This document shows positions 7,681 through 62,707 of a stretch of DNA of 64,000 nucleotides, in pieces. The translations under genes were made by a program, and so were the position numbers. Numbering within the stretch: the stretch's first letter is position 1; every line of letters begins with the position of its first letter. This DNA comes from Gibbula magus (lineage: Eukaryota; Mollusca; Gastropoda; Trochida; Trochidae), in contig OW388299.1 in NCBI GenBank assembly GCA_936450465.1, forward strand, positions 39,815,548 to 39,879,547, read 5' to 3'. A model generated the notes under the pieces. It was not told where the DNA came from and did not search any database. It saw only the letters and a list, made by a program, of their open reading frames with translations.

Positions 7681-10421
7681 AGTGTTTCCGGTGACTTTCA
7701 AAATCACCAGTCCATGGGACTGGTTAGCCTCAAATATACCAGTCCAATAATATTTTTGCCAGTCAACAAAGTTTCCATGTTAATAAAGAGACTTTTGTAA
7801 AATAAAACATGACTTTAATGTGTTTGTGTTTCATTTTTAATTGTAACAAGAATACGTTTACATAATACAGATTTACACATGTATTTTAACTGAATCTGCT
7901 GCTTCTGAATCTGTGTAACGTGAAGGGATTTTCACAATATGTTATCCGTATACAGTTAATTACACTTTCCTTTTTCTATTTTTTCTGAATTTGTCTGCTG
8001 CTTTTGTGTAATTGAAGGGATTTTCACACGTATCATGTGCATGCATGTTTAGAATCATGAGATTGTTCATGCGTCGCTCCACGAGTCTATTTCTGCTGGC
8101 AGTATGGATTCGATTTTGGAGGCTGAACCCTCTCTCGGCAGGCACGCTACTCACCGGTATGGTTAGCGCAATTTCAGCCAGAATACAGTAATCAGGGAAG
8201 ATGTCAGCATATTCAGTTATCAGAACTTTGCAATTCGTGTCAAAACTTCCACTCCCAATGCCAGAATTGACACGCTTGAATTGCTGGAATTCACGAATCG
8301 AACGGTCCCGGTCGATATGTGGCATCGTGACGTCATTGTTGTCTTGTCCAATCACTGGACAGAAGTGATCTAGCAACACTGTCAGGGAATCCCCACCATA
8401 ATCTGCAAGATTTTCCTTTGTCTCGGGGTATTTGTTAGGATTTAGAACGTTGTCCAACGCTTGAAGAATGTCCAATGATTTGTCAGGGAATCTTTTATCA
8501 AGTGAATTGACAAGTTCTTCAATGAAACATTTACGTGTTTTGTTAAATGCTTCGACCGATCTTTTGTCAGCATAGGTCACTTTAATCCCCCTGAATTGTC
8601 CCTCTTTCAAATTCTGGTCAATGATCTTTTCATGTTCCCCCTTTTCAGTGATTAACTCTAAAAGAGATTCTTTTGTAGAAACAACCATAGGTCTTATGAT
8701 AGACAGATTCAGGGTTTCTCTTTGAAAAACCGTAACTAGTTTTTCCATTAAAGGCAAAACGTCGCTCAACATGTATGTGGTTGCGATGAAAGAATATGTT
8801 TTCAGTTTTTTGGAAATTCCCGTTGCTGCAGTATTGTTGCGTTCAGCCCCCTCTTCCTCAATTTCCATTACTAATGCCGGCCAGTTGCTTTTTGTAGATT
8901 TTACAGCCCGACCTAACGAAAGCCATCTAACAGTGCAGGGTTGTTTTACGCTGGAAAACTCTGAATCGTCTAAAACTTCACTCAGTTCCCTTAGTCTAGC
9001 ATATCTCGTTGCTGAGTATTGATAGAGTTTGTACACCTGATTCAATGTATTGCGGTACTCTGTAATAGTCCCTGAAAGTTTGGCAGCGTCCTGTGAAGCT
9101 AAAGCCACACGATGTGCGATACAATGCACGTGAATTAGGTAAGGGGAGTCTATGGTAAGTCTGACACCGACGCCAGTTTTGCGGCCTGTCATAACACTTG
9201 CGCCGTCAGTACCCAATCCAATGATTTTTTCTAGTGAAATGCCCCATTGTCCTGTTACTTCTCGTACTTTCTCAGTAATGCACTCGGCATTCCCACTATG
9301 AACAGTAAAGTTTCCTAACAGAATAGTTTCTGCTTTGCCACGGTGAACTATGCGAGCAAACATGATCAGTTTTTTTTCAACGGTAACGTTTACAGTTTCA
9401 TCCATGATAAGACCGACGAAACGACTTCTTGACAATTTTTCTTTGAGATTATCCATGGTACACTCTGTTAACGCTTCTTCCATTTCGTCGATTGAGTCAG
9501 AATGTGAATATATAACTCCGTTTAGTGAAGAACATCCATTTCTTTTTTGTAAATCAATCAGGCCCTTGAACTTATTTCTAGGTACATTTTCATGCGCCAT
9601 GTACAATACAGTACGCATCATAGCAGTTAGGCTGTCGTCATTTTGCTTCTGGAAATCACTTATGTGAGACTCCATTGCCTTTTTATGTGACAGACGTACA
9701 ACTGCCTCATGGTGACTGGCGCTATCTCGATGCTCTTTAAGAGCAGATTTCTGGAAATTTATACAACCTTTTGTAAAGCCGTTTATTTTGTTCGCAGCCT
9801 CACAAATACGACAAAACATAAGCCCAGCTCCTGACTGTTTAGACGTGTCACCGTGATTATCATACCGTAACCAAGGAAATTCCTCTTTCCAGTCATTATT
9901 GAATTTTCGGGATCTCTTTGGTTTTGATTCATCGTTTGTTTTGGTTGAATTTGTAGTTGACTCACTCTCGTTAACATCTGGTTTTCGCTTAGAGCCGAGA
10001 AAACCAGACAGTGTCGTCTGCTTTGACATCGCCATTTTAAATATCCAAACTTAAATATTCATTGAGTCACCCTTTACACTTTATCACTGGCCCCGATAGA
10101 GCATTGCTAACTGATACAGTATACTCTCACGCCAAAATGCATCGCTCTCATATACATAAACACTCGTTCGAGGCTAAGCATTGTTACTAAAATTGGACAG
10201 GGAATTCCATGCAGGTTTCGCTTTCGGCGCAGATTGCTAATATTTTCCTAGAGATTTCGTTTGTAACTAAATTAGTTGTTGGTATCGTTCAAAGACAAGT
10301 TAGTGATTAATTAACCAGGTAAATATATTGCCGGTCCACTGGACTTATTGGCCATAAATATACCGGTCCTTTGACATATTTATCGGTAAAATACCGGCAT
10401 ATGCCGGTAAACGGAAACACT
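7681..10421 (-). mobile_element. hAT DNA transposon, apparently complete
   Basis: Ends AGTGTTTCCG (7681) and CGGAAACACT (10421) are perfect 10-bp inverted repeats. Flanks GATATAAC (7673-7680) and GATATACC (10422-10429) are an 8-bp target duplication with one mismatch, the size expected for hAT. Alternatively the ends are CAGTG...CACTG with a shorter duplication. Subterminal repeats of the type CCAGTCC/CCGGTCC occur at both ends, as transposase-binding sites often do. The element sits inside an older dispersed repeat related to 59300-59520. Confidence 0.88.
7960..10035 (-). CDS. hAT-family transposase with N-terminal zinc finger
   Basis: One 691-codon frame without introns. Seen: basic, Ser/Thr-rich N-terminus; a CxxC...H...H finger at about residues 53-109 (C75, C78, H102, H108/109); catalytic-type acidic residues D212 (GLIMDE) and D277 (GLGTDGASVMTG); C305/H308 (HCIAH); R370-W371 (CTVRWLSLG); and E634 in VSSVPAERGFS, followed by the hAT C-terminal dimerisation region (RNRLVERRMNNLMILN) and a basic tail KFRKNRKRKV. 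It resembles the C17orf113/ZNF862-like branch of hAT proteins. All key residues are present, so it may be active or only recently silent. About 50 bp of the 3' coding end are partly duplicated just past the stop (7893-7942 versus 7985-8032). The start is the first ATG of MAMSK. A domesticated gene is less likely because both element ends are present. Confidence 0.93.
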   Translation of the reverse strand: MAMSKQTTLSGFLGSKRKPDVNESESTTNSTKTNDESKPKRSRKFNNDWKEEFPWLRYDNHGDTSKQSGAGLMFCRICEAANKINGFTKGCINFQKSALKEHRDSASHHEAVVRLSHKKAMESHISDFQKQNDDSLTAMMRTVLYMAHENVPRNKFKGLIDLQKRNGCSSLNGVIYSHSDSIDEMEEALTECTMDNLKEKLSRSRFVGLIMDETVNVTVEKKLIMFARIVHRGKAETILLGNFTVHSGNAECITEKVREVTGQWGISLEKIIGLGTDGASVMTGRKTGVGVRLTIDSPYLIHVHCIAHRVALASQDAAKLSGTITEYRNTLNQVYKLYQYSATRYARLRELSEVLDDSEFSSVKQPCTVRWLSLGRAVKSTKSNWPALVMEIEEEGAERNNTAATGISKKLKTYSFIATTYMLSDVLPLMEKLVTVFQRETLNLSIIRPMVVSTKESLLELITEKGEHEKIIDQNLKEGQFRGIKVTYADKRSVEAFNKTRKCFIEELVNSLDKRFPDKSLDILQALDNVLNPNKYPETKENLADYGGDSLTVLLDHFCPVIGQDNNDVTMPHIDRDRSIREFQQFKRVNSGIGSGSFDTNCKVLITEYADIFPDYCILAEIALTIPVSSVPAERGFSLQNRIHTASRNRLVERRMNNLMILNMHAHDTCENPFNYTKAADKFRKNRKRKV

Positions 10422-41970: not shown

Positions 41971-42086
41971 ATGGGTTCGAGTAATTCACGAAGAAGAATG
42001 AACGAGGGACAGACGCAATCGAGCACGGGGGGCGACCGTGAAGAGGATACTGATTTGAGAGCAATCTTAGCACACCTGATTCGCAG
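41971..42086 (+). CDS. DCAF11: DCAF11 coding exon 1 (start codon)
   Basis: 116 nt. ATG at 41971 (CTCCATGGG) gives MGSSNSRRRMNEG, equivalent to vertebrate MGSRNS; ends ILAHLIR plus AG before GTGAGA. An out-of-frame ATG at 41960 opens a 13-codon frame that ends inside this exon (TGA near 42001). Confidence 0.9.
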
Positions 42087-45000
42087 GTGAGAATTTGGAA
42101 CGCTGAAATTTTGCATTTTTAATAACACAATTAGTCCTAATTACGTAACGCGTCTTATTTTCTTATGACATTTATTCCAAGAATATTAATCGTTTGTCTA
42201 AACGTATTAATTTCGTTGGATTGTTTTATAAATGTTTTTATTTTGATACCTGCAGGCCTTTGATAGAAGTATCTAAATGTGACATGATGTTTACTATCTA
42301 TCAGCTGATTTTGATTGACATTTGAAATTAACAAAACAAACCCATGTCTATTATGTTCTGTTACATGACTGACCATAACATATTTAATTGATTTGGATGA
42401 TTAATTTATCTAGTTATCTAATGTACCTTGATCATGACATAGGTAAAATATATGTAGGCCATGACCTACTTTGATGTAGGTAAATAAGAACAGGTGATAA
42501 CAAATGCCTCATAAATCTAGGCCAATAGTGATTAAGATCTAAAAACAAATCTTTATTATTTCTAAACAGTAATATAATCTAAATTTTAATCAATTTGCTA
42601 AATATAATTTTTGGTTTAATTTTGTCTAATTACTGGTTCAGTCTAGACTATGATGACTTGCATATTTCTTATCTTATGCTTGGTTACTGTCACACTAATA
42701 TTGATTAATTCATACATGAGTAAGTAACTGTTATTTCATTTCATACATGAGTAAGTCACTGTTAATCAAGTGCTAAATACAAAGTGAATGTAATTATTTT
42801 GGTGGCAGTTCAAACAAAACATGTCAAAATAACAAGAGATTAACTTCCTTGTGGGTTTGTTCAAAACATCTGGACAAAATATAATTTTAAAGGGTCACTA
42901 TAGCAAAAGTATTTTAATGTGGAAATATGTTCACAATGTATGCAGAAGCTCATTAGAATTAACTACAGTTCTAATATACCATGTTTTCTTGAATACAACC
43001 CAGATCTTGAATATAACCAGGGGGTCATGGGGTGCTGAAGTAAATACAACCCGGATCTCGAATATATCACAGACCTTGAATACAACAAGGGGGTCATGGG
43101 GTGCTGAGGTAAATACAACCCAAAACTGGAATATATCACAGACCTTGAATACAACCAGGGGGTCATGGGGTGCTGAGGTAAATACAACCCAGATCTTGAA
43201 TACAACAAGGGGGTCATGGGGTGCTGAGGTAAATACAACCCAAAACTGGAATATATCACAGACCTTGAATACAACCAGGGGGTCATGGGGTGCTGAGGTA
43301 AATACAACCCAGACCTTGAATACAACAAGGGGGTCATGGGGTGCTGAGGTAAATACAACCCAAAACTGGAATATATCACAGACCTTGAATACAACCAGGG
43401 GGTCATGGGGTGCTGAGGTAAATACAACCCGGATCTCGAATATATCACAGACCTTGAATACAACCAGGGGGTCATGGGGTGCTGAAGTACATAAAACCCG
43501 GATCTCGAATATATCACAGACCTTGAATACAACCAGGGGGTCATGGGGTGCTGAGGTAAATACAACCCAGACCTTGAATACAACAAGGGGGTCATGGGGT
43601 GCTGAGGTAAATACAACCCAAAACTGGAATATATCACAGACCTTGAATATAACCAGGGGGTCATGGGGTGCTGAGGTAAATACAACCCGGATCTCGAATA
43701 TATCACAGACCTTGAATACAACAAGGGGGTCATGGGGTGCTGAGGTAAATACAACCCGGATCTCGAATATATCACAGACCTTGAATACAACCAGGGGGTC
43801 ATGGGGTGCTGAGGTAAATACAACCCGGATCTCGAATATATCACAGACCTTGAATACAACCAGGGGGTCATGGGGTGCTGAAGTAAATACAACCCGGATT
43901 TCGAATATATCAACCAGGAGGAATTTAAGGCCTACCGTATTTCCTCGAATACAACCCAGGCCTTGAATAGAACCTGGGGGTTAAGAGGGTGCTGAACAAA
44001 ATAGAACCCCAAGGTTGTATTCGAAGAAATACGGTTCACACCATTTTGTGATGAGAATTAAAATTATATTTTTGAGAAACAGAACTATTGGATAAACATT
44101 TATCATTAAATATGAATTTTGATGAATTTTAAAACAGTTCATCATAAACATGCTGACAAAATAAAACCAAATTAAAAACAAAACTGCAAAATAGTTTATT
44201 TGTTTCAAATCAGACATAATCAAGTTCCACGGACTCATTAGAAAAACCCTTACAGTCAAAGACTAAGACCTTTGAAGAAGTTTGGCTTCGGATCGTGTTT
44301 CGATTCCCGCCAGGATCACGACAACTTTGTCTGCAGTAGAGAACTGTTCTACACGCAGTACGGTTTGGGTGAAATGCAACACTTAATTTCAGTGAAGTAC
44401 CACCCATGGTTCGCTAGTTCGAGCCGATGCTCGCAGGTTTCACTGCAATACAAAGCAAAAGGTGTTGCAGGCTTTCTCCCTGCAGTGATACTAGCAGCCG
44501 TGATATAAGTGAAATACTCTTGAAAGCGGCGTTAAAGGAACACTACGCGTTTTTCATGAAATTTTATTTAGATTTGACACATACAAAAATATCAAATGTC
44601 CAGATTTATGTCCAAATCATATCACTCAACTTGCATTCGTAACCCCTAACGCCAAATGTTTGACATTATCCTACCTCATGTAAGAATGTCGATCAAGGAT
44701 TGGTCCACGTGACCCTGAACAAATAACAATATTCACCCTAACCCAGGTGGATAAATGTCACCGAGGGTGATAAAAGCCTTATACCCCGCTACCGAAATAA
44801 AGCGTGCGTCCACGTCAGTCAGTCCATGTCACGTGATACAGTTTATTTTGACTCTAACCCAGATTTGTTGCTTCTTTGAGTAAACGATGTTCGAGCATTT
44901 CTGTTTGTTTTTAATAATATTTTGAGACATTCGGTAGGATAAAAACGTTATAACATTCAGTTGAGGTTTACATCGTGAATTATAAGACCCTTATTATTTT

Positions 45001-45894: not shown

Positions 45895-48800
45895 GAGGGG
45901 AGGGTTCACCTAAGGGGTTGAACAAATTTACATGCAAACATTTTCAAAGGTGGGGTGGGTGGAAGCACCACTACCCAGTCATGTGAGGCATGTGGGGTGA
46001 TATGAATTTAATCTTTGGGTCATGGAGGGTGTAAGTCTAGGCTCAAATACAAGAGGCATTATGTGAGGATTGGGGGAGGGGGTTTGAATGGACCCGCCAT
46101 GCTCAGCCATATGGGGCATGTATGAATGTAGTTGTGGTGCTAATACTTTATAGAAAATATGGAGGGGGGGAAGCAAAGGGAGAAAGGGAGGATAGTCCTT
46201 CCAGGCAGGAGGCAGGAGGAGGGGAAATATTTGGGTCATGGCAGGAGGAGGGGAAATCTTTGGGTCATGGCAGGAGGAGGGGAAATCTTTGGGTCATGGC
46301 AGGAGGAGGGGAAATTTTTGGGTCATGGCAGGAGGAGGGGAAATCTTTGGGTCATGGCAGGAGGAGGGGAAATCTTTGGGTCATGGCAGGAGGAGGGGAA
46401 ATCTTTGGGTCATGGCAGGGGGAGGGGAAATCTTTGGGTCATGGCAGGGGGAGGGGAAATCTTTGAGTCATGGCAGGAGGAGGGGAAATCTTTGTTTCAT
46501 GGCAGGGGAGGGGAAATCTTTGGGTCATGGCAGGGGGAGGGGAAATCTTTGAGTCATGGCAGGGGGAGGGGAAATCTTTGGGTCATGGCAGGGGGAGGGG
46601 AAATCTTTGGGTCATGGCAGGGGGAGGGAAAATCTTTGGGTCATGGCAGGGGGAGGGGAAATCTTTGGGTCATGGCAGGGGGAGGGGAAATCTTTGGGTC
46701 ATGGCAGGGGAGGGGAAATCTTTGGGTCATGGCAGGGGGAGGGGAAATCTTTGGGTCATGGCAGGAGGAGGGGAAATCTTTGGGTCATGGCAGGGGAGGG
46801 GAAATCTTTGGGTCATGGCAGGAGGAGGGGAAATCTTTGGGTCATGGCAGGAGGAGGGGAAATCTTTGGGTCATGGCAGGGGGAGGGGAAATCTTTGAGT
46901 CATGGCAGGAGGAGGGGAAATCTTTGGGTCATGGCAGGGGAGGGGAAATCTTTGGGTCATGGCAGGGGGAGGGGAAATCTTTGAGTCATGGCAGGGGGAG
47001 GGGAAATCTTTGGGTCATGGCAGGGGGATGGAAAATCTTTGGGTCATGGCAGGGGGAGGGGAAATCTTTGGGTCATGGCAGGGGGAGGGGAAATCTTTGG
47101 GTCATGGCAGGGGAGGGGAAATCTTTGGGTCATGGCAGGAGGAGGGGAAATCTTTGGGTCATGGCAGGAGGAGGGGAAATCTTTGGGTCATGGCAGGAGG
47201 AGGGGAAATCTTTGGGTCATGGCAGGAGGAGGGGAAATCTTTGGGTCATGGCAGGAGGAGGGGAAATCTTTGGGTCATGGCAGGAGGAGGGGAAATCTTT
47301 GGGTCATGGCAGGAGGAGGGGAAATCTTTGGGTCATGGCAGGAGGAGGGGAAATCTTTGGGTCATGGCAGGAGGAGGGGAAATCTTTGGGTCATGGCAGG
47401 GGGAGGGGAAATCTTTGAGTCATGGCAGGAGGAGGGGAAATCTTTGGGTCATGGCAGGGGAGGGGAAATCTTTGGGTCATGGCAGGGGGAGGGGAAATCT
47501 TTGAGTCATGGCAGGGGGAGGGGAAATCTTTGGGTCATGGCAGGGGGAGGGGAAATCTTTGGGTCATGGCAGGGGGAGGGAAAATCTTTGGGTCATGGCA
47601 GGGGGAGGGGAAATCTTTGGGTCATGAAGTTCTTACAGGTTATGGTGGTCTCTTATTTCAAGCTGCTATTATTGCTATTTTAGAACGTTTGTGCTCTTTG
47701 TGCAATGTGAACCTTTGAATGGTCAAGCCTGTACTAGAGACATAACAATAGAGGTTACACCATATAAGACAAATTATTATAAAATTGAGATCAATAAATT
47801 ATTGATCTCAATTTCTTCTTTATGGAATGCACAATGTTTCTGTGCTGTTCAGGGCTCGAGATAAGATGTGTATCCACGTGAATATGCATTAATATCCCTA
47901 TATTCATAAAATCTATGAGTGAAAGATACTCACAACATAATTTTCGTTCTAAGATTAACATGATGATTTTATGGAAAGATAATAATGATAATCTGATTAA
48001 TAAATCAGAAACAACTTCACATTGGTATAAGGAAAAGTGTAACCTGCGTTTTCCAACACTTTAAAAAATAAACAATTACCCATTCTTTGATTTCATTTGA
48101 TATTTTATGAATTTTGATGAACAAAATACCCATTATCAGGTCCACTGGGACCTTGCCCCTTCATCACGTGAATGGTGAACTTTAAATATATACTTGTAAC
48201 TTTCTCCATAGAATGCAAAGGTTATAAAGATTATATTTTGTTATGGCATACTTTGACCAATGTGGATTATAAATAGTAAATTTGGTGACTGGGTAGTGTC
48301 TTATTAAAAAAAAAAAAAATTCCCAGAAAATCAAATCTTATCTTGGAAATAGAGTTTGACCATATACATCCCTTGTTGTTCACAGCGTAATGGCTTGTAC
48401 TAATAAATTGTCTATGTTTAACAGTGGACAGATTCGGATACTGAGTTCTGATGGAGTGCCCTCTGATGAAGAGGATTCTGATGAGACCGAATACATTGGA
48501 AGTGCTTCTGTAGCACCTGATGGTGAGATATGATTCAGTATTACATTGAAAGTGCTTCAGTAGCACCTGATGGTGAGATATGATTCAGTATTACATTGGA
48601 AGTGCTTCTGTAGCACCTGATGGTGAGATATGATTCAGTATTACATTGGAAGTGCTTCTGTAGCACCTGATGGTGAGATATGTTTCAGTATTACATTGGA
48701 AGTGCTTCTGTAGCACCTGATGGTGAGATATGATTCAGTATTACATTGGAAGTGCTTCTGTAGCACCTGATGGTGAGATATGATTCAGTATTACATTGGA

Positions 48801-51800
48801 AGTGCTTCTGTAGCACCTGATGGTGAGATATGATTCAGTATTACATTGGAAGTGCTTCTGTAGCACCTGATGGTGAGATATAATTCAGTATTACATTGGA
48901 AGTGCTTCTGTAGCACCTGATGGTGAGATATGATTCAGTATTACATTGGAAGTGCTTCTGTAGCACCTGATGGTGAGATATAATTCAGTATTACATTGGA
49001 AGTGCTTCTGTAGCACCTGATGGTGAGATATAATTCAGTATTACATTGGAAGTGCTTCTGTAGCACCTGATGGTGAGATATGATTCAGTATTACATTGGA
49101 AGTGCTTCTGTAGCACCTGATGGTGAGATATGTTTCAGTATTACATTGGAAGTGCTTCTGTAGCACCTGATGGTGAGATATAATTCAGTATTACATTGGA
49201 AGTGCTTCTGTAGCACCTGATGGTGAGATATGATTCAGTATTACATTGAAAGTGCTTCTATAGCACCTGATGGTGAGATATGTTTCAGTATTACATTAGA
49301 CCTGCTTCTGTAGCACCTGATGGTGAGATATAATTCAGTATTACTTTGGAAGTGCTTCTGTAGCACCTGATGGTGAGATATGATTCAATATTACATTGGC
49401 AGTGCTTCTGTAGCACCTGATGGTGAGATATAATTCAGTATTACATTGGAAGTGCTTCTGTAGCACCTGATGGTGAGATATAATTCAGTATTACATTGGA
49501 AGTGCTTCTGTAGCACCTGATGGTGAGATATGATTCAGTATTACATTGGAAGTGCTTCTGTAGCACCTGATGGTGAGATATAATTCAGTATTACATTGGA
49601 AGTGCTTCTGTAGCACCTGATGGTGAGATATAATTCAGTATTACATTGGAAGTGCTTCTGTAGCACCTGATGGTGAGATATAATTCAGTATTACATTGGA
49701 AGTGCTTCTGTAGCACCTGATGGTGAGATATAATTCAGTATTACATTGGAAGTGCTTCTGTAGCACCTGATGGTGAGATATAATTCAGTATTACATTGGA
49801 AGTGCTTCTGTAGCACCTGATGGTGAGATATAATTCAGTATTACATTGGAAGTGCTTCTGTAGCACCTGATGGTGAGATATGTTTCAGTATTACATTGGA
49901 AGTGCTTCTGTAGCACCTGATGGTGAGATATGATTCAGTATTACATTGGAAGTGCTTCTGTAGCACCTGATGGTGAGATATAATTCAGTATTACATTGGA
50001 AGTGCTTCTGTAGCACCTGATGGTGAGATATAATTCAGTATTACATTGGAAGTGCTTCTGTAGCACCTGATGGTGAGATATGATTCAGTATTACATTGGA
50101 AGTGCTTCTGTAGCACCTGATGGTGAGATATGATTCAGTATTACATTGGAAGTGCTTCTGTAGCACCTGATGGTGAGATATGATTCAGTATTACATTGGA
50201 AGTGCTTCTGTAGCACCTGATGGTGAGATATGATTCAGTATTACATTGGAAGTGCTTCTGTAGCACCTGATGGTGAGATATAATTCAGTATTACATTGGA
50301 AGTGCTTCTGTAGCACCTGATGGTGAGATATGATTCAGTATTACATTGGAAGTGCTTCTGTAGCACCTGATGGTGAGATATAATTCAGTATTACATTGGA
50401 AGTGCTTCTGTAGCACCTGATGGTGAGATATGATTCAGTATTACATTGGAAGTGCTTCTGTAGCACCTGATGGTGAGATATGTTTCAGTATTACATTGGA
50501 AGTGCTTCTGTAGCACCTGATGGTGAGATATGTTTCAGTATTACATTGGAAGTGCTTCTGTAGCACCTGATGGTGAGATATGATTCAGTATTACATTGAA
50601 AGTGCTTCTGTAGCACCTGATGGTGAGATATGTTTCAGTATTACATTAGACCTGCTTCTGTAGCACCTGATGGTGAGATATAATTCAGTATTACTTTGGA
50701 AGTGCTTCTGTAGCACCTGATGGTGAGATATGATTCAATATTACATTGGCAGTGCTTCTGTAGCACCTGATGGTGAGATATAATTCAGTATTACATTGGA
50801 AGTGCTTCTGTAGCACCTGATGGTGAGATATAATTCAGTATTACATTGGAAGTGCTTCTGTAGCACCTGATGGTGAGATATGATTCAGTATTACATTGGA
50901 AGTGCTTCTGTAGCACCTGATGGTGAGATATAATTCAGTATTACATTGGAAGTGCTTCTGTAGCACCTGATGGTGAGATATAATTCAGTATTACATTGGA
51001 AGTGCTTCTGTAGCACCTGATGGTGAGATATAATTCAGTATTACATTGGAAGTGCTTCTGTAGCACCTGATGGTGAGATATAATTCAGTATTACATTGGA
51101 AGTGCTTCTGTAGCACCTGATGGTGAGATATAATTCAGTATTACATTGGAAGTGCTTCTGTAGCACCTGATGGTGAGATATAATTCAGTATTACATTGGA
51201 AGTGCTTCTGTAACACCTGATGGTGAGATATGATTCAGTATTACATTGGAAGTGCTTCTGTAGCACCTGATGGTGAGATATGATTCAGTATTACATTGGA
51301 AGTGCTTCTGTAGCACCTGATGGTGAGATATAATTCAGTATTACCATGGAAGTGCTTCTGTAGCACCTGATGGTGAGATATAATTCAGTATTACATTGGA
51401 AGTGCTTCTGTAGCACCTGATGGTGAGATATAATTCAGTATTACATTGGAAGTGCTTCTGTAGCACCTGATGGTGAGATATAATTCAGTATTACATTGGA
51501 AGTGCTTCTGTAACACCTGATGGTGAGATATGATTCAGTATTACATTGGAAGTGCTTCTGTAGCACCTGATGGTGAGATATGATTCAGTATTACATTGGA
51601 AGTGCTTCTGTAGCACCTGATGGTGAGATATAATTCAGTATTACATTGGAAGTGCTTCTGTAGCACCTGATGGTGAGATATAATTCAGTATTACATTGGA
51701 AGTGCTTCTGTAGCACCTGATGGTGAGATATAATTCAGTATTACATTGGAAGCGCTTCTGTAGCACCTGATGGTGAGATATGTTTCAGTATTACATTGGA

Positions 51801-54800
51801 AGCGCTTCTGTAGCACCTGATGGTGAGATATGTTTCAGTATTACATTGGAAGCGCTTCTGTAGCACCTGATGGTGAGATATGTTTCAATATTACATTGGA
51901 AGCGCTTCTGTAGCACCTGATGGTGAGATATGTTTCAGTATTACATTGGAAGTGCTTCTGTAGCACCTGATGGTGAGATATGTTTCAGTATTACATTGGA
52001 AGTGCTTCTGTAGCACCTGATGGTGAGATATGTTTCAGTATTACACTGGAAGTGCTTCTGTAGAACCTGATGGTGAGATATAATTCAGTATTACATTGGA
52101 AGTGCTTCTGTAGCACCTGATGGTGAGATATGATTCAGTATTACATTGGAAGTGCTTCTGTAGCACCTGATGGTGAGATATAATTCAGTATTACATTGGA
52201 AGTGCTTCTGTAGCACCTGATGGTGAGATATAATTCAGTATTACATTGGAAGTGCTTCTGTAGCACCTGATGGTGAGATATAATTCAGTATTACATTGGA
52301 AGTGCTTCTGTAGCACCTGATGGTGAGATATAATTCAGTATTACATTGGAAGCGCTTCTGTAGCACCTGATGGTGAGATATGTTTCAGTATTACATTGGA
52401 AGCGCTTCTGTAGCACCTGATGGTGAGATATGTTTCAGTATTACATTGGAAGCGCTTCTGTAGCACCTGATGGTGAGATATGTTTCAGTATTACATTGGA
52501 AGTGCTTCTGTAGCACCTGATGGTGAGATATGTTTCAATATTACATTGGAAGTGCTTCTGTAGCACCTGATGGTGAGATATGTTTCAGTATTACATTGGA
52601 AGTGCTTCTGTAGCACCTGATGGTGAGATATGTTTCAGTATTACATTGGAAGTGCTTCTGTAGCACCTGATGGTGAGATATGTTTCAGTATTACATTGGA
52701 AGTGCTTCTGTAGCACCTGATGGTGAGATATAATTCAGTATTACATTGGAAGTGCTTCTGTAGCACCTGATGGTGAGATATGATTCAGTATTACATTGGA
52801 AGTGCTTCTGTAGCACCTGATGGTGAGATATAATTCAGTATTACATTGGAAGTGCTTCTGTAGCACCTGATGGTGAGATATGATTCAGTATTACATTGGA
52901 AGTGCTTCTGTAGCACCTGATGGTGAGATATGTTTCAGTATTACATTGGAAGTGCTTCTGTAGCACCTGATGGTGAGATATAATTCAGTATTACATTGGA
53001 AGTGCTTCTGTAGCACCTGATGGTGAGATATGATTCAGTATTACATTGGAAGTGCTTCTGTAGCACCTGATGGTGAGATATGTTTCAATATTACATTGGA
53101 AGTGCTTCTGTAGCACCTGATGGTGAGATATGTTTCAGTATTACATTGGAAGTGCTTCTGTAGCACCTGATGGTGAGATATGTTTCAGTATTACATTGGA
53201 AGTGCTTCTGTAGCACCTGATGGTGAGATATGTTTCAGTATTACATTGGAAGTGCTTCTGTAGCACCTGATGGTGAGATATAATTCAGTATTACATTGGA
53301 AGTGCTTCTGTAGCACCTGATGGTGAGATATGATTCAGTATTACATTGGAAGTGCTTCTGTAGCACCTGATGGTGAGATATAATTCAGTATTACATTGGA
53401 AGTGCTTCTGTAGCACCTGATGGTGAGATATAATTCAGTATTACATTGGAAGTGCTTCTGTAGCACCTGATGGTGAGATATGATTCAGTATTACATTGGA
53501 AGTGCTTCTGTAGCATCTGATGGTGAGATATGATTCAGTATTACATTGGAAGTGCTTCTGTAGCACCTGATGGTGAGATATGATTCAGTATTACATTGAA
53601 AGTGCTTCAGTAGCACCTGATGGTGAGATATGATTCAGTATTACATTGGAAGTGCTTCTGTAGCACCTGATGGTGAGATATGATTCAGCACCTGGACCCA
53701 TGATAGGTGTCAATTTCAATTTGACAGCGACAGCTGATTGACAATGCAGCTGACAGCTGTGCAAGTGGAAATGAGAAGCAAAAGAATAATTGACTGCAAA
53801 AATAAAAACCATCTCCATAATTTTAGATCTTTGAATTAATTGTTTTTATTTATAAAATGTATTATTATGATTTTTTTTTTCAGCTGATGACAATCCAGAT
53901 ACATCTGCAATAGATGTAAGTATTTTCAAGTATTTTGTTGATGGAAAATATTCTGAATTTATCAATTTTAACATGAACATAACTAAGAAACATAAAGAAA
54001 GTATAATCCCTTCAGTTTTGTAATGTTGATCCGTTTATTCATATAGACAATACTTTCAGGTGAATACAACATCAACCATTGTTTTGAAGCGCTGTCTGCT
54101 TAAAAAGAGATAAGCATTAAAAGTGGGTAAAAAATACCCCAGGCATAAAACACCCCCATCACAGCTACAGCGTTTGTTAGGCCATGTTATGTCATACACA
54201 ACTAATGGCTGCGCTGCCTTAATGAGAAACCTGTGACTGTCCTTTATTGAGACATTTTTTGCCAATAATTCGTTTAAAACTTAAATACAACTTTTGACAA
54301 TGTAAGGTTCTAATAGAATGGATATTTGTGCATATTTACAATTTTTGCAGTTATGTTAGGCTAATTTTTGTGGATTCTGTCATTAGACACCAAGCGTCTC
54401 CTGTGTTTCACGTCACAAGGCCCAGCAGGTTTCAGCGGCGTCCTAAAAAAACGTTATAAAAGGTGTTTATTGGTTGAATTGACATATATCAAGTCGAATC
54501 CTCGTCATCTTGGAATATGCTTGAATAATAAACGAAAAGTGATATGATCAGGGTTTGTGGTTCTTAAAGAGGCAAGGGGCGGGATAGCGCATTGGTTGGC
54601 ACGTTCGGCTTCGGATCAAGCGGTTCGTGGTTCGAATCCCGAAGGGGCACGGCAACTTTGTCTGCAGTAGAGAACTGTTCTACACGCAGTAAGGTTTGAG
54701 TGCAATGCTGCACTGAATTTCAGCGTAGTACCACCCATGGTTCACTAGTTCCAGCCGATGCTCGCAGTTTTCACCGCAAAGCATAGCCACATGGTGTTGT

Positions 54801-57800
54801 GGGCTTTCTCCCTGTCATAATACTGGCAGCCGCGCTATAAGTGAAATACTCTTGAAAGCGGCGTTAAACCCCAACTCACCCCACCTCACCTCTTTAAGAG
54901 GCTTTTTCTTTTCTTATTTGTATAATAAAATTCTTCATTACTACCAGTAACCAAAATATCTGATGTTTGTTGCCTTTGACCTGTCCTAAGAAAAGGGTTA
55001 AACAGCGTCAATCAATTTATTTTTTAATTAGACAGATAATTTTCAAATTTCTTTAATCAAAATTCAATGCTTAGATTTATTATTGATAATTTTATTTTAA
55101 TTTTCAAGATGAACGACATCCACAACATTGTGATGCGTCAAACGGGGCGCTCAGTATGTCGTCCACATCCGTACAAGAATATTGTCCCCCATCTTGTCAA
55201 ACAGGTACGCATTTTTGATATACCATTATTGATGAAAAGGATCATAGTGTTGACCATTGCAATCACTTCATTTCAACAGAAATACTGATATAATAAATGG
55301 AATATCTGTTTTTCTTGACAAATACTATGTCTATATCTCATGTAAGCTTTTGAGGTTGAAAAGTTTATAATTTACTTGTGTCACTTGTGGCATCATTTTC
55401 AACCTCTTCACTGGTATTATCAAAGGGTGTTCATAGATTTTTATTGAAAACAAGTAATTGTTATATATTTGGCATTTAGAGATGAATATGCAATTTGAGT
55501 GAGATGTTTTGGACTTAAAAGGAGAGTTCTATTGGGGTACTTTTTGTGGAAACGAAATTCAAGAGGATATTCAAGTTTACACATGTTATTAATACATGCT
55601 TATAACACAGTCAAATTGAAACAAATTAATGAAGTTAATATTTTGATGCCATCTTATCTCACAACTTGATAAAGACAAGCGCACATTTGTTGAAAAATGA
55701 AAAGAGGACTGAAGCCATTCATCGGCTCTGCGAGTGGGGAAAACTTTGCTGTGATCTAACAGTACATTGTTTATTAGTTTTATTCTATGTTATGTGTTAC
55801 GAGGTTAATGTTCTATCGGTGTATATGTTTTATTATAAAAAAGTGTAAAATTGGGTTAAATACAGCATGTTTTTATTTCACGTAATGCCAAGAAACCAAG
55901 ATCACAGATGCTGCCGATAGAACCATGATAGAATTTTCCTTTTAAATCAGCAAATATGGTGTTTTGACACATATGAAAGTCAAGTAAAATTTTACGAAAA
56001 ATACTTTGTCACTGGTTGGCATAATGTCAGAGCACTGAAGTTATGTCAATACAACGTTGGGTACACGAGATATAAATATCCAAATAATCATTGTATGTCA
56101 TGGACCCTGTGAATTCTGTTGAACCCCATCTTTTAAAAGAATGGTCACATAGGACCCCAAGGAGGGTTCTTTCGGGGTATTTTTAGTGGAAACGAAATTC
56201 AAGAGGATATTCAAGTTTACACATAAATGTTATTAATACATGATTAAAACAAAGTGAAAGATACTAATGAAGGTAACATTTTGATGACCACTTTATATTT
56301 CGCAAATTGATAAACACATGCAAACATTAAAACAATGAGAACTGAAACCATTCATTGGCGCTGCGAGTGGGGAAATCTTTGCTACAGTATAACAGCTAAG
56401 TGTTTATTAGTGTTATGACATGTTTTGTGTTGCTATGTGAATACTCTATCCGTGTATGTCTTTAGTTATTAAAAATTTGCAAAATTAGGTACAATATAGC
56501 ATGTTTTCATTTCACGTAATTAAAAAAAATCCTGTATAGTGACAGAACTCTACCTTTAAAGATTACATCTTTGGCAGCATTGATGAAATGCCCTTGAATA
56601 TTAACTTGGGTTATGGCTTTCACATCCTTTGAAGCCAGAACCGTTTTGTTTCAGAGAGAAGCCGGAATGAACAAACAGCAACAGTTTACTGTGGGGGACT
56701 GCTGCGCAATCTACAATAGGTAATTACAAGTGCAAAATAAAATGCTAAAATATGTATCATATCCTTTTTATTCCAGGGGGCGGGATAGCGCAGTGGTTAC
56801 ACGCATTCAGCTTCGGATCAAGCGGTTCGAATTCTGCCAGAGGCACGGCAACTTTGTCTGCAGTAGAGAACTGTTCTACACGCAGTAAGATTTGGGTGCA
56901 ATGCTACACTGAATTTCAGAGTAGTACCACCCATGGTTCGCTCGCAGGTTTCACCGTAATGCATAGCCACATGGCGTTGCGGGCTTTCTCCCTGCCGTAA
57001 TACTAGCAGCCGCGATACAAGTGAAATACTCTTGAAAGCGGTGTTAAACCCCAACTCACCTCACTCACCTCACCTTTTTATTCCACCAGTATGTTATACA
57101 GTGGGATATAGTCGTTGCCCTGTCCTTCTGTCCGTCTCGCCGCTAATGGCTGCAATACTGCCGAAGCGGGGTTAAACAATAACTCACTCACTCACTCACT
57201 TCTGTCCGTCCGTATGTCGGTCTGTCTGTCTGTCCTTCCGTAATCAGGAGCAGAACGCCAAAACCCTTCATGATAACTTTGCATGTGTATTATCAAATAA
57301 TTTTGGTGCCTTTTTTGGTAATTTCAAATTTCAGAAACTTTTATTTTATTTTGTGTTAAAAACGTGTTAGATTTGGACTTTGTTCAGGGGTAGTTTCATT
57401 TCCGAAGCAGAACTCCAAAATCCTTCATCATTCCTGAAATTTTGCATGTGTATTACCCACCTGCTGAAGTAGTACTTTAAAGCAGGGATGCAGAAATCGG
57501 TCTATTTGCCGGACATGTCCGATTGTAAATCCAGTTTGACCGATTGGAAAATTGACCTATCGGACATCAGTTGACCGATTGCAGAAAATAAAAGGAAAAC
57601 TAAACTTACAAGCATTAAATAAAGGCAAACAGCCCTGCTTGTGTCGGTCATAATTGTTTATGAAATTGAAATACGTTGATCCAGTCAAGAAGTCACATTT
57701 ATTCTTCACAGCACGAGGCACGACATCAATCGTCATTATCTACAGTAAATTATAATTGTCTGCAGAAAAAACACTTACCGTTTGATATTTAATTGAAATT

Positions 57801-60800: not shown

Positions 60801-62707
60801 CGCTAGTTATGCTTTGTGGAGGGAAATTGTTAATTGGAATGAAAATGAGACCAATGGAATATGACATTTCTGACGAGATATTTTGTTATATTATCAGTTT
60901 CTTGCCCAACAACTCTACAAAACTGGCTTCCTATCACCACAAGGCATTCTGTGGAACGTTTTCAAAAGAGGGAAATATTTTTCTATCAGCAGCACAAGGT
61001 ACAGTTGTTTATGTTTTTCTTAGTTTTGGATATAACAAAAAATATATTTGTATCTCCAAATTTAATATATGAAATAAGTGAAAATACAGATTTGTGCAAT
61101 TTTGTAAACAAAGCAATAACTATTTTGGCTAATATTTGCACAATATACTGATATATTTTTTACTGACAAATTTATATAAATTATATCATGAAAGTACATA
61201 TATATATATATATATTAAATAAAGTTAAACGAAAAATAATTTTTAAAATAAGTTTTATGTTTAATGAATAACCAATAATGCATTTTGTAGCTATTCATAA
61301 AAGTTTAATTGCAATAACTGACAAATGAAAAAAATTACAAATAAATTATAATTATTTCAGATCAGCATATTCGTATCTACGACACATTGAACGACGAGTT
61401 TAGATTGTTTAAGACAATACGAGCCCGGGATGTGGGATGGAGTGTTCTTGATACAGCGTTCAGGTGAGAAATATTTATTGAAATGAACAGTGGTCGGAAA
61501 TGAACGCACCAGTATTTAGTTATGTGATCTATAAGGTTAAATTACCATTTCTAATCCCTGAAATTGAAAGCAAAGAGGTTTTATCATGTCATGGTCCGTT
61601 CGACTGTCCCGTAAGGACTACCTGTCTTCTGAAATCAACACTATTTCTGGCTCACAGAAAGTAAATGAAAAAGAGGTAAAAAAATTTGATTGTACTAACG
61701 TATCATAAAAGGTTTTATTGTAACAATTATTCTTGTTTTCAGCCCTGACGGCAACTATGTGATTTACTCGAGTTGGTCAGACTGCAGTAAGTTCATGCCA
61801 TACACTTGGCAGTTCCTTTGATTTTCTATTTGTTCAATATGAAGAATTTTTTTATTTTGTCTTTTTTCTTGGAACTTTGTTGTATTCTGAATCTGTTCAT
61901 ACTTAAAACATTTGCCTATGATCCCTATGTAGACATCTTCACAACGTCACAGGCGTAACGAAAAGATTTCCATATCTTCTCCTTCCGCCCTTGACCTCAA
62001 CCCTCGCATTTTCAGTGCTAAGATTTAAACGTACTGCAGGCTAATCGGATAAGCCAATCAGAAGACAGTTGTATTGCCTCTGTGACTGTGTCTATCGTCG
62101 CTTATTTTGAATTGGTTCCGAATGTAAACAGCAATTTCATTGGCTGTATGTTAGCAGATGGTAAGGGACGTAACTCGTGATCACAATAGGTGTCGCTGAT
62201 TCGTTTCACCACTTCTGGCTAGGTTGAAGGCAAGGTAAAAAATGGAGAGATCTCGATACATTTTCACCTTGCCGTGGGAAGATGTATGTAGAAGTCTCTT
62301 AAAGGAAAGGTTCTATAGGAGTCTCTGCAATTCTGCTTTTATGTATTATGTGAAATGAGAAGAAATGCTTTATTCTTACTATTTATACAAATGTTTCTTA
62401 TTTTAACATAAATACACCATTTGAAAACTAAACTTTTCTAAATTATGTTGTGGTTGAAATATAACTCTTAATTAATTAATTAATTAAACACAATTGAAAT
62501 AGATGATAGAGGGTATTCTAAGTTTGATAACTTGTTCAAACAATGGGATAATGTTTAAAAAAAATTATTTTTGAACTTTTCAGTTCATTTATGCAACATA
62601 TACGGAGATCATGACGTTCACGAGGCACTGCCCCTGTTGCCAGGCGACCAGAGTTTCTGTATATTCTCTTTGACGTTTTCCTCTGACAACAGAGAAATTC
62701 TTGGAGG
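41971..62707 (+). CDS. DCAF11: DCAF11 (WDR23) orthologue, first nine coding exons
   Basis: Seen: exons 41971-42086, 48425-48522, 53884-53915, 55109-55204, 56655-56719, 60898-60998, 61361-61463, 61743-61786, 62584-62707, all GT-AG and in phase, about 259 codons without a stop. The N-terminus MGSSNSRRR, the acidic stretch REEDTDLRAILAHLIRRSGQ reading across exon 1-2, FLPNN plus HHKAFCGTFSKEGNIFLSA, then IRARDVGWSVLDTAFSPDG and YSSWSDCIHLCNIYG match vertebrate DCAF11 in order. Known: DCAF11/WDR23 is a WD40 substrate receptor of the CUL4-DDB1 E3 ligase and restrains NRF2/SKN-1. The remaining WD repeats lie beyond the window. Introns 1 and 2 are packed with tandem arrays (see other entries). Identity is very secure; exons 3-5 are the least conserved and rest on phase and splice signals. 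Confidence 0.94.
42977..44034 (+). repeat. MITE-like element expanded internally into a 69/51-bp minisatellite
   Basis: Left edge TACCATGTTTTCTTGAATAC (42977) resembles a sequence near the right side, TACCGTATTTCCTCGAATAC (about 43933), and the inverted right edge ends GAAGAAATACGGT. Between them lie about 14 units of 69 bp or 51 bp (23 or 17 codons), all multiples of three, so open frames of 371 codons (+) and 316 codons (-) appear on both strands. The unit shares GAATACAACCC and CAGGGGGT with the terminal sequence. Confidence 0.8.
44536..45449. mobile_element. TTAA MITE, subfamily A, copy 3, inside a SINE
   Basis: AGGAACACTACG at the left and CGGAGTGTCCCT at the right; TTAA at 44532-44535 and 45450-45453. 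The flanks are the two halves of a SINE tail (GCGGCGTTAA and ACCCCAAATCACC), so insertion into the SINE is certain. It is interrupted by about 420 bp (roughly 44670-45090) that include a long hairpin. Confidence 0.93.
44947..45085. repeat. Long hairpin, 63-bp arms
   Basis: Left arm 44947-45009 and right arm 45023-45085 are near-perfect reverse complements around a 13-nt loop (TCGCCTCCGGCTC). Part of a foreign segment within the subfamily A MITE. Confidence 0.9.
45856..45893 (+). repeat. 38-base G homopolymer
   Basis: Uninterrupted run of 38 G, preceded by GTGTGT and followed by AGAGGGGAGGG. Homopolymer length is error-prone in assemblies. The flank to about 46150 is purine-rich and low in complexity. 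Confidence 0.9.
46205..47630 (+). repeat. 29-bp G-rich minisatellite, about 49 copies
   Basis: Unit of 29 bp (some 28) with core GGGTCATGGCAGGAGGAGGG followed by GAAATCTTT. Three main variants: AGGAGGAGGGG, AGGGGGAGGGG, and a 28-bp AGGGGAGGGG form; some units read GAGTCAT. All three + frames are open over long stretches because the unit lacks stops; this is a repeat effect, not coding. Lies in DCAF11 intron 1 with the G-rich strand as the sense strand. Confidence 0.96.
48425..48522 (+). CDS. DCAF11: DCAF11 coding exon 2 (founder of the 50-bp array)
   Basis: 98 nt after TTTAACAG. The entering T completes AGT, giving SGQIRILSSDGVPSDEEDSD then ETEYIGSASVAPD. Vertebrate DCAF11 has RGQVRL at this place. 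Donor GTGAGATAT at 48523. The last ~30 nt plus the donor are repeated 103 more times downstream. Confidence 0.88.
48491..53690 (+). repeat. 104 x 50-bp array of a duplicated exon end and 5' splice site
   Basis: Seen: the motif AGTGCTTCTG recurs exactly every 50 bp from 48501 to 53651, giving 104 units with no indel. Unit 1 is the real end of DCAF11 exon 2 with its donor (CCTGATG then GTGAGATAT). Units differ mainly at TGATTCAG / TAATTCAG / TGTTTCAG and by rare markers. Each carries a donor-like GTGAGA, and most carry a TTCAG acceptor-like site. The array fills most of intron 2, which otherwise is only about 190 bp. It lacks spacers, so it is not a CRISPR. Confidence 0.98.
53691..54575. other. 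Non-array part of DCAF11 introns 2 and 3
   Basis: About 190 bp of single-copy sequence with a T-rich tract before exon 3, then AT-rich intron 3 sequence after 53915 up to a SINE. No other structure seen. Confidence 0.6.
53884..53915 (+). CDS. DCAF11: DCAF11 32-nt microexon
   Basis: 32 nt between a T-rich tract ending CAG and GTAAGT. Reads ADDNPDTSAID, continuing the acidic region; phase agrees only if exon 2 ends at the first donor of the array (48522). Confidence 0.75.
54576..54893 (+). repeat. tRNA-derived SINE in DCAF11 intron 3
   Basis: Full copy from GGGGCGGGATAGCGC to CACCTCACC; flanks TCTTAAAGAGGC and TCTTTAAGAGGC look like a slightly decayed target duplication. Confidence 0.92.
55109..55204 (+). 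CDS. DCAF11: DCAF11 coding exon 4
   Basis: 96 nt, 32 codons, between TTTTCAAG and GTACGC. Reads MNDIHNIVMRQTGRSVCRPH then PYKNIVPHLVKQ. Corresponds in position to the NEIKTQVELATG region of vertebrate DCAF11, with low similarity. Confidence 0.8.
55519..55941. mobile_element. TTAA MITE, subfamily D (AAGGAGAGTTCTAT), copy 1
   Basis: TTAA at 55515 and 55942; left AAGGAGAGTTCTATTGG, inverted right AAGGAAAATTCTATC. Shares long stretches with 56159-56555, for example GGAAACGAAATTCAAGAGGA. Confidence 0.8.
56159..56555. mobile_element. TTAA MITE, subfamily D, copy 2
   Basis: Left AAGGAGGGTTCTTTCGGGG, right GACAGAACTCTACCT then TTAA; the left TTAA is lost. Lies 100 bp before DCAF11 exon 5. A small fragment of the same family is at 16638-16683. 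Confidence 0.75.
56655..56719 (+). CDS. DCAF11: DCAF11 coding exon 5
   Basis: 65 nt between TTGTTTCAG and GTAATT. Reads REAGMNKQQQFTVGDCCAIY then N and AG of a Ser. Corresponds to the vertebrate RERGLCHRGSFSLGEQSRVI step. Confidence 0.82.
56776..57072 (+). repeat. tRNA-derived SINE with 13-bp TSD
   Basis: Starts GGGGGCGGGATAGCGCAGTG, 57 bp after DCAF11 exon 5. CCTTTTTATTCCA at 56763-56775 and 57073-57085. Lacks part of the B-box region. Confidence 0.92.
57483..58869. mobile_element. Non-autonomous hAT element with 8-bp TSD
   Basis: Inverted ends CAGGGATGCAGA / TCTGCATCCCTG flanked by perfect CTTTAAAG (57475-57482 and 58870-58877). Near the ends the motif CGGACA/GACCGATT recurs in both orientations. 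About 1.39 kb, AT-rich, no transposase frame. In DCAF11 intron 5. Confidence 0.9.
58975..59292 (+). repeat. tRNA-derived SINE in DCAF11 intron 5
   Basis: GGGGGCTTAATAGCGCAGTG to CACCTCACC; flanks TCTTTAAACCC and TCTTTAGTCCC are a decayed target duplication. Confidence 0.9.
59650..59830 (+). repeat. Third tRNA-like repeat type
   Basis: TTACGTCTATCAGAGGGGTA, then GTGGGTTCGAATCCTGCATG. A related copy is at 63400-63540 (TTACATCTATCAGAGGGGTA), and a looser relative at 24105-24200 with GTGGGTTCGAATCC. Confidence 0.6.
60156..60363. mobile_element. TTAA MITE, subfamily C, copy 2
   Basis: AGGGACACCGCGTCGAGGAT ... ATCCTCAACGCAGTGTCCCT with TTAA on both sides; shares GGTAACGAGTCACAG with copy 1 in inverse. 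Confidence 0.9.
60612..60829. mobile_element. CAACTTCC foldback MITE, copy 6
   Basis: CAACTTCCATCTGCAAGACA at the left, inverted GTGGAGGGAAATTG at the right; flanks agree 6 of 9. Lies 68 bp before DCAF11 exon 6. Confidence 0.8.
60898..60998 (+). CDS. DCAF11: DCAF11 coding exon 6 (first WD repeat)
   Basis: 101 nt between TATTATCAG and GTACAG. Reads SFLPNNSTKLASYHHKAFCG then TFSKEGNIFLSAAQ, close to vertebrate HFLPND...QKAFCGIYSKDGQIFMSA. Longer open frames through this exon run into introns on both sides. Confidence 0.94.
61361..61463 (+). CDS. DCAF11: DCAF11 coding exon 7
   Basis: 103 nt between ATTATTTCAG and GTGAGA. Reads DQHIRIYDTLNDEFRLFKTI then RARDVGWSVLDTAF; RARDVGWSVLD is a DCAF11 signature. 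Confidence 0.96.
61743..61786 (+). CDS. DCAF11: DCAF11 44-nt exon 8
   Basis: 44 nt between TTGTTTTCAG and GTAAGT. Reads SPDGNYVIYSSWSDC, matching PDGNHFLYSSWSDY of vertebrate DCAF11. Confidence 0.95.
62584..62707 (+). CDS. DCAF11: DCAF11 coding exon 9
   Basis: 124 nt between ACTTTTCAG and GTAAGT. Reads IHLCNIYGDHDVHEALPLLP then GDQSFCIFSLTFSSDNREIL and GG. The next exon (vertebrate ANDGCLYVFD) was not found before 64000. Confidence 0.95.

Follow-up and report, generated by a model that had tools for sequence, protein, structure and literature searches.

Tandem copies of an exon end and its splice donor in DCAF11 of the snail Gibbula magus, and similar arrays in an SLC22-like gene

How does an intron come to begin with 104 tandem copies of its own 5' splice site, and do the copies act in the gene that carries them? 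The question is raised by intron 2 of DCAF11 in the trochid snail Gibbula magus, which lies in a stretch of 64,000 nt (hereafter the window; contig OW388299.1, positions 39,815,548 to 39,879,547 of the forward strand). The contig, C11, is 77 Mb long and belongs to a chromosome-scale assembly of 1.47 Gb in 140 contigs (GCA_936450465.1). The locus would offer a natural experiment on how the spliceosome selects a single donor among 104 identical copies spaced 50 nt apart. We propose that it is a donor-junction minisatellite that was born by tandem duplication, is tolerated by way of its intact first donor and consists of copies that are mostly passive, and we give this explanation a probability of about 0.7.

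Tandem Repeats Finder (TRF), run on the window, placed the array at 48492-53688 with a period of 50, 103.9 copies, a match of 97% and 0% indels. Reading unit by unit likewise gave 104 units of 17 types with no indels and a mean divergence among units 1-103 of 3.1%, so the two approaches bear out a preliminary description of the locus as about 104 equal-length copies of 50 bp running for 5.2 kb. Unit 1 is composed of the final 31 nt of DCAF11 exon 2 (TACATTGGAAGTGCTTCTGTAGCACCTGATG) followed by 19 nt of intron 2 (GTGAGATATGATTCAGTAT), and it runs on without a break from an exon that, when translated, aligns collinearly with DCAF11. The array extends from the exon end into the intron and takes in the splice donor of its host exon (GTGAGATAT), which 104/104 units retain. 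At its other end the last unit passes from GATTCAG into unique intron sequence, and unit 104 deviates at columns 48 and 50 only, where the unique intron begins. The earlier proposal that the founder was the functional exon 2 end with its donor also holds, as unit 1 spans this junction and the last unit enters the intron. A genome search with two units returned at least 48 matches, and all those listed lie inside the DCAF11 array.

The reading frame sets the first donor apart from its copies. Joined in frame, the exons encode a protein that matches DDB1- and CUL4-associated factor 11 (PDB chain 9ptu_A, E=2.4e-64); the closest among the listed proteins is from the abalone Haliotis cracherodii, at about 75-76% identity. 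When exons 2 and 3 are joined through the first donor, the protein lines up collinearly with 11 relatives, except for a single additional residue close to where exon 2 ends. When the frame was computed for each choice of donor, the first (1/104) left it open and the other 103/104 led to a stop at codon 75. If exon 3 is skipped, the frame shifts as well and translation runs into a stop.

These features are consistent with a simple birth. Set against the flanking exon and intron, the repeated stretch measures 47 bp, and neighboring copies are joined by TAT. A 47-bp stretch over the exon 2/intron 2 boundary (TACATTGG...GATTCAG) would thus have been duplicated in tandem with three filler bases (TAT) at the join, and the copies would then have multiplied inside the array through block duplication. 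The order of unit types carries a sign of such block duplication: a string of 11 types is repeated 27 units on (Table 1), against a longest repeat of 5.2 on average and 10 at most in 200 shuffles. Two changes are common to units 2 and 103, so this variant has been kept at both array ends and is absent from the middle. Exon definition across exon 2, from the unaltered acceptor immediately upstream of 48425, would hold splicing to the first donor, and the 103 intronic copies would be mostly passive, with at most a slight leak into mRNAs that carry one or more extra units and stop at codon 75.

Arrays of the same kind occur in a second gene. In an SLC22-like gene, 5/8 donors checked carry an array of their own exon end and donor (exons 1, 4, 5, 6 and N; not 2, 3 and N+1). 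By TRF these arrays straddle the donors, start 10-49 nt before the exon end and contain 11-62 copies (Table 1). Loci L040 and L035 make up C1:4303001-4315400 on the minus strand; we treat the exons as one gene, with the 22 kb between L040 and L037 outside the reading. The protein translated from the joined exons aligns over its full length with SLC22 of Haliotis asinina (44% identity, E=6.9e-114), and the exon ends occupy collinear positions in the alignment. This later match overtakes earlier negative results, in which neither two peptides from single exons nor one from a partial set of joined exons matched a Pfam family, and the exon 1 peptide alone had no match in PDB at E 0.1 and only chance ones at E 10. 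The five SLC22-like units are unrelated, which points to separate births, and none of the six donor-array units (DCAF11 and the five SLC22-like) is a multiple of 3 in length. A further array, of 21 bp, begins 62 nt past the exon 3 donor, which lies outside it. The arrays at exons 4, 5 and 6 were met unsought while the 10 kb beside exon 1 were being read. With six arrays in two genes, five of them at SLC22-like exons whose units are unrelated, donor-junction minisatellites would count as a recurrent feature of this genome.

Table 1. Features of the DCAF11 locus (window positions) and donor-junction arrays of the SLC22-like gene (by locus).
Feature	Position	Strand	Remarks
DCAF11 exon 1, coding part (MGSSNS...HLIR)	41971..42086	+	Donor CAG/GTGAGAAT; Haliotis DCAF11 residues 1-42 match 41971-42084
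DCAF11 exon 2, ending ...SVAPD + G	48425..48522	+	Its final 31 nt form the exonic portion of unit 1
Donor-junction minisatellite	48492..53691	+	104 units of 50 bp, each 31 exonic and 19 intronic nt
First donor GTGAGATAT	48523..48531	+	Sole donor giving the DCAF11 frame
DCAF11 intron 2	48523..53883	+	5361 nt; would be 211 nt if the 103 extra units were absent
Unit 2 (G8A T18A)	48542..48591	+	Same sequence as unit 103, 53592-53641
Units 17-27	49292..49841	+	11-unit type string recurring in units 44-54
DCAF11 exon 3	53884..53915	+	32 nt; frame shift if skipped
DCAF11 exon 4	55109..55204	+	
DCAF11 exon 5	56655..56719	+	
DCAF11 exon 6	60898..60998	+	
DCAF11 exon 7	61361..61463	+	
DCAF11 exon 8	61743..61786	+	
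DCAF11 exon 9	62584..62707	+	Gene extends beyond the window (continuation L041)
SLC22-like exon 1 array	L035	-	59-bp unit
SLC22-like exon 4 array	L040, 10 kb next to exon 1	-	38 bp, 28 copies
SLC22-like exon 5 array	L040	-	40 bp, 62 copies
SLC22-like exon 6 array	L040	-	73 bp, 18 copies, to end of stretch read
SLC22-like exon N array (late exon, ends ELYPTPIR)	L037	-	34-bp unit

The recurrence makes a further question testable, namely why donors are straddled by arrays, yet none of the 29 acceptors checked is. The counts come from a comparison of exon and array coordinates in three genes, the last two SLC22-like exons being placed by tblastn only. Founding arrays were found at 1/13 donors and 0/12 acceptors of DCAF11 with its continuation, and at 0/8 SLC22-like acceptors. 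When the three cases that led to the genes (DCAF11 exon 2, SLC22-like exons 1 and N) are set aside, the tally is 3/26 donors versus 0/29 acceptors. By our own arithmetic from the sampled density, about 0.1 array starts would be expected at 50 nt or less before 26 donors; the excess is suggestive only, because all three arrays are in one gene. That density derives from 200 kb taken at 20 hand-picked places on contigs C1-C16, where 14 arrays of 300 bp or more occupy 16,171 of 200,000 bases (8%).

A difference between donors and acceptors would most likely follow from survivorship. Tandem duplications would be frequent in a repeat-rich genome and those over donors would survive, because a tandem copy leaves the first exon end and its donor intact; a copy spanning an acceptor would set a decoy in front of the genuine acceptor. 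A broader proposal, which we make only tentatively, is that in this snail lineage minisatellites arise preferentially at exon/5' splice-site junctions. Some process that affects donors but spares acceptors, be it selective survival or a lesion at the junction linked to transcription or to U1, may repeatedly have turned exon ends into kb-scale arrays, such that many introns would start with tens to more than 100 copies of their own donor.

Several observations weigh against these proposals. Use of the first donor is something that we infer rather than see. The case for recurrence comes from two genes; of the six donor arrays, three were sought and the other three are all in one gene. In RANBP9, the upstream neighbor of DCAF11, arrays were present at 0/8 donor positions (at one of which the scan showed no clear donor) and 0/9 acceptors. 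Likewise, a crude scan of the 200-kb sample for exon-founded arrays returned 0/45 array-and-strand cases, with a donor score that would miss SLC22-like exon 5. Finally, two features of the copies could hint at constraint: columns 26-40 of the DCAF11 unit, a run of 15 with the donor core within it, are invariant (P of about 0.019 for units 1-103 if the 16 variable columns are placed at random), and GT is kept in 212/215 copies across five of the six donor arrays.

The sixth, at SLC22-like exon 4, has lost GT in 25/28 copies, as expected if the copies are passive. Relative to the rest of the unit, the donor core is less variable in three arrays (DCAF11 exon 2, SLC22-like exons 1 and N), equally variable in one (exon 6) and more variable in two (exons 4 and 5). 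Even where it is less variable, 17-23% of 9-column windows are equally conserved. Selection on donor copies as a general rule was rejected, the core being not consistently better conserved across the six arrays.

We also searched for such arrays through clusters of donor-like motifs. Three close AGGTRAG motifs occur in at least 31,235 places genome-wide, versus at least 14,974 for a reversed control, and single AGGTRAG sites in the 200-kb sample are about equal to the control (56 versus 50). Part of the triplet excess is visibly (AGGTG)n repeat, so no count of arrays is drawn from it. Among nine clusters listed at C1 2.69-5.24 Mb, four are (AGGTG)n-like, one of them (C1:2915550-2915782) mixed. 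Of the five others, L035 and L037 are exon-founded, both in the SLC22-like gene; L036 and L038 have no exon at the array in a reading by eye; and in L039 the reading stops short of the array's 5' edge.

A single donor-founded array is a known kind of structure, with precedents in human genes. The preliminary description had presented the DCAF11 array as not matching any described system, and this main claim of novelty falls with the two precedents, ABCA7 and IFI6 (PMC5954066; PMC4526556). In human ABCA7, a variable number tandem repeat (VNTR) in intron 18 is reported with about 12-427 units of 25 bp, whose array includes the exon's donor and whose unit has the donor GT of exon 18 as its first two bases (PMC5954066). 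The two arrays are alike in that they directly follow an exon, include its own donor, comprise tens to hundreds of units on a kb scale and shift the frame when one unit is retained. They differ in that the snail unit begins 31 nt inside the exon, and in that the ABCA7 array is described as polymorphic, disease-linked and backed by RNA evidence, while the snail array is known from the sequence of one assembly. The second human case, the IFI6 (6-16) minisatellite, was reportedly first described by Turri, Cuin and Porter in 1995. Its unit is 12 nt, so copies stay in frame, unlike the 50-nt snail unit, where 103/103 downstream donors lead to the stop at codon 75. The likeness is that the minisatellite supplies several splice donors, two downstream repeat units being used (PMC4526556). 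Closer to the snail, a 27-bp minisatellite that varies between individuals lies in intron 3 of a TSSK1-like gene of Haliotis discus hannai, a related vetigastropod; it is intronic like the DCAF11 array, but the accessible part of that report mentions no exon end or donor inside the unit (PMC6905558). We found no paper on a genome-wide class of donor-junction arrays in a search that covered few subscription papers.

The ABCA7 precedent lends itself to an alternative in which the DCAF11 array controls dosage. By analogy, the copies would compete for U1, skipping of exon 3 or unit-extended mRNA would scale with array length, and DCAF11 output would follow copy number. In ABCA7, skipping of exon 19 is reported to increase with VNTR length, and a frameshifted mRNA that retains one unit to make up about 2% of transcripts (PMC5954066). 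In favor of a similar effect in the snail gene, exon 3 is just 32 nt long, and an early stop follows whether it is skipped or the second donor is used. However, the extra-unit isoform of ABCA7 is reported as independent of array length (PMC5954066), so the same analogy predicts a response in exon 3 skipping alone. We consider dosage control unlikely; ABCA7-like side effects in snail DCAF11 are, by comparison with the human gene, plausible.

Alternatively, the copies could act as U1 sites that hold U1 along a long intron and thereby suppress premature polyadenylation or delay splicing, a role we regard as improbable. The preliminary description counted about 104 near-consensus U1 sites, and the count stands: the donor, ATG/GTGAGATA (-3 to +8), shows no difference across 104/104 units. 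Their strength does not, for the match is only moderate (5/11 bases of CAGGTAAGTAT, -8.1 kcal/mol), and in a scoring of U1 pairing, proposed as a check, the donor shared by all units ranks just fourth strongest among the 9 DCAF11 donors in the window. Outside the array 75/6573 GT sites (1.1%) are equally strong or better. The density of matches is 20 per kb in the array versus 0.58 per kb (plus-strand GT, equal or better) elsewhere in the window, and one AATAAA lies downstream in intron 2, at 53801, as an active role would have it. The array itself contains no AATAAA or ATTAAA, and because the intron would be only 211 nt without the 103 extra units, it would mostly guard its own length. The loss of GT at SLC22-like exon 4 and the inconsistent conservation of donor cores also argue against active copies. 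We found no support for U1 titration or telescripting as roles of the array, and titration by one locus is in our judgement implausible. The genome's own U1 starts with ATACTTACCTG in 3/6 loci, those in which the 5' end was read; the other three lie on the minus strand. Matches to the U1 small nuclear RNA gene themselves form a tandem array (G000:C15:48140667-48173802) with a spacing of mostly 704 bp.

It is very improbable that the true copy number differs greatly from the assembled one. Tandem arrays are error prone in assembly, but here 17 unit types occur in patterned order between unique flanks on both sides, the assembly is chromosome-scale, and similar arrays exist at other loci. Least probable of all is that the units serve as cassette exons or recursive sites, each with a donor and a weak TTCAG acceptor and with splicing among units: ATTCAG or TTTCAG does precede a 34-nt exon-like part, and columns 43-46 are invariant, but only 6-7 of 17 bases before the AG are pyrimidines in three unit forms, versus 9-13 in 8 real DCAF11 acceptors, and the 16 nt between neighboring donor and acceptor are too short for an intron.

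In RNA folding of four units the z score was -1.85, and 7/200 shuffles folded equally well. Six other arrays in the window, scanned on both strands, contain no GT site at -8 kcal/mol or better. Intron 1 of DCAF11 harbors two further repeats: a G-rich minisatellite of 29 bp in 49 copies (46211-47626), about 0.8 kb before exon 2, and a composite 51/69-bp array (42987-43912), whose units carry a weaker donor-like GAGGTAAATAC and which is not at an exon end. Elsewhere in the window, an open reading frame of 696 aa on the minus strand (7960-10050) encodes a hAT-type transposase-like protein (zf-C17orf113, Dimer_Tnp_hAT).

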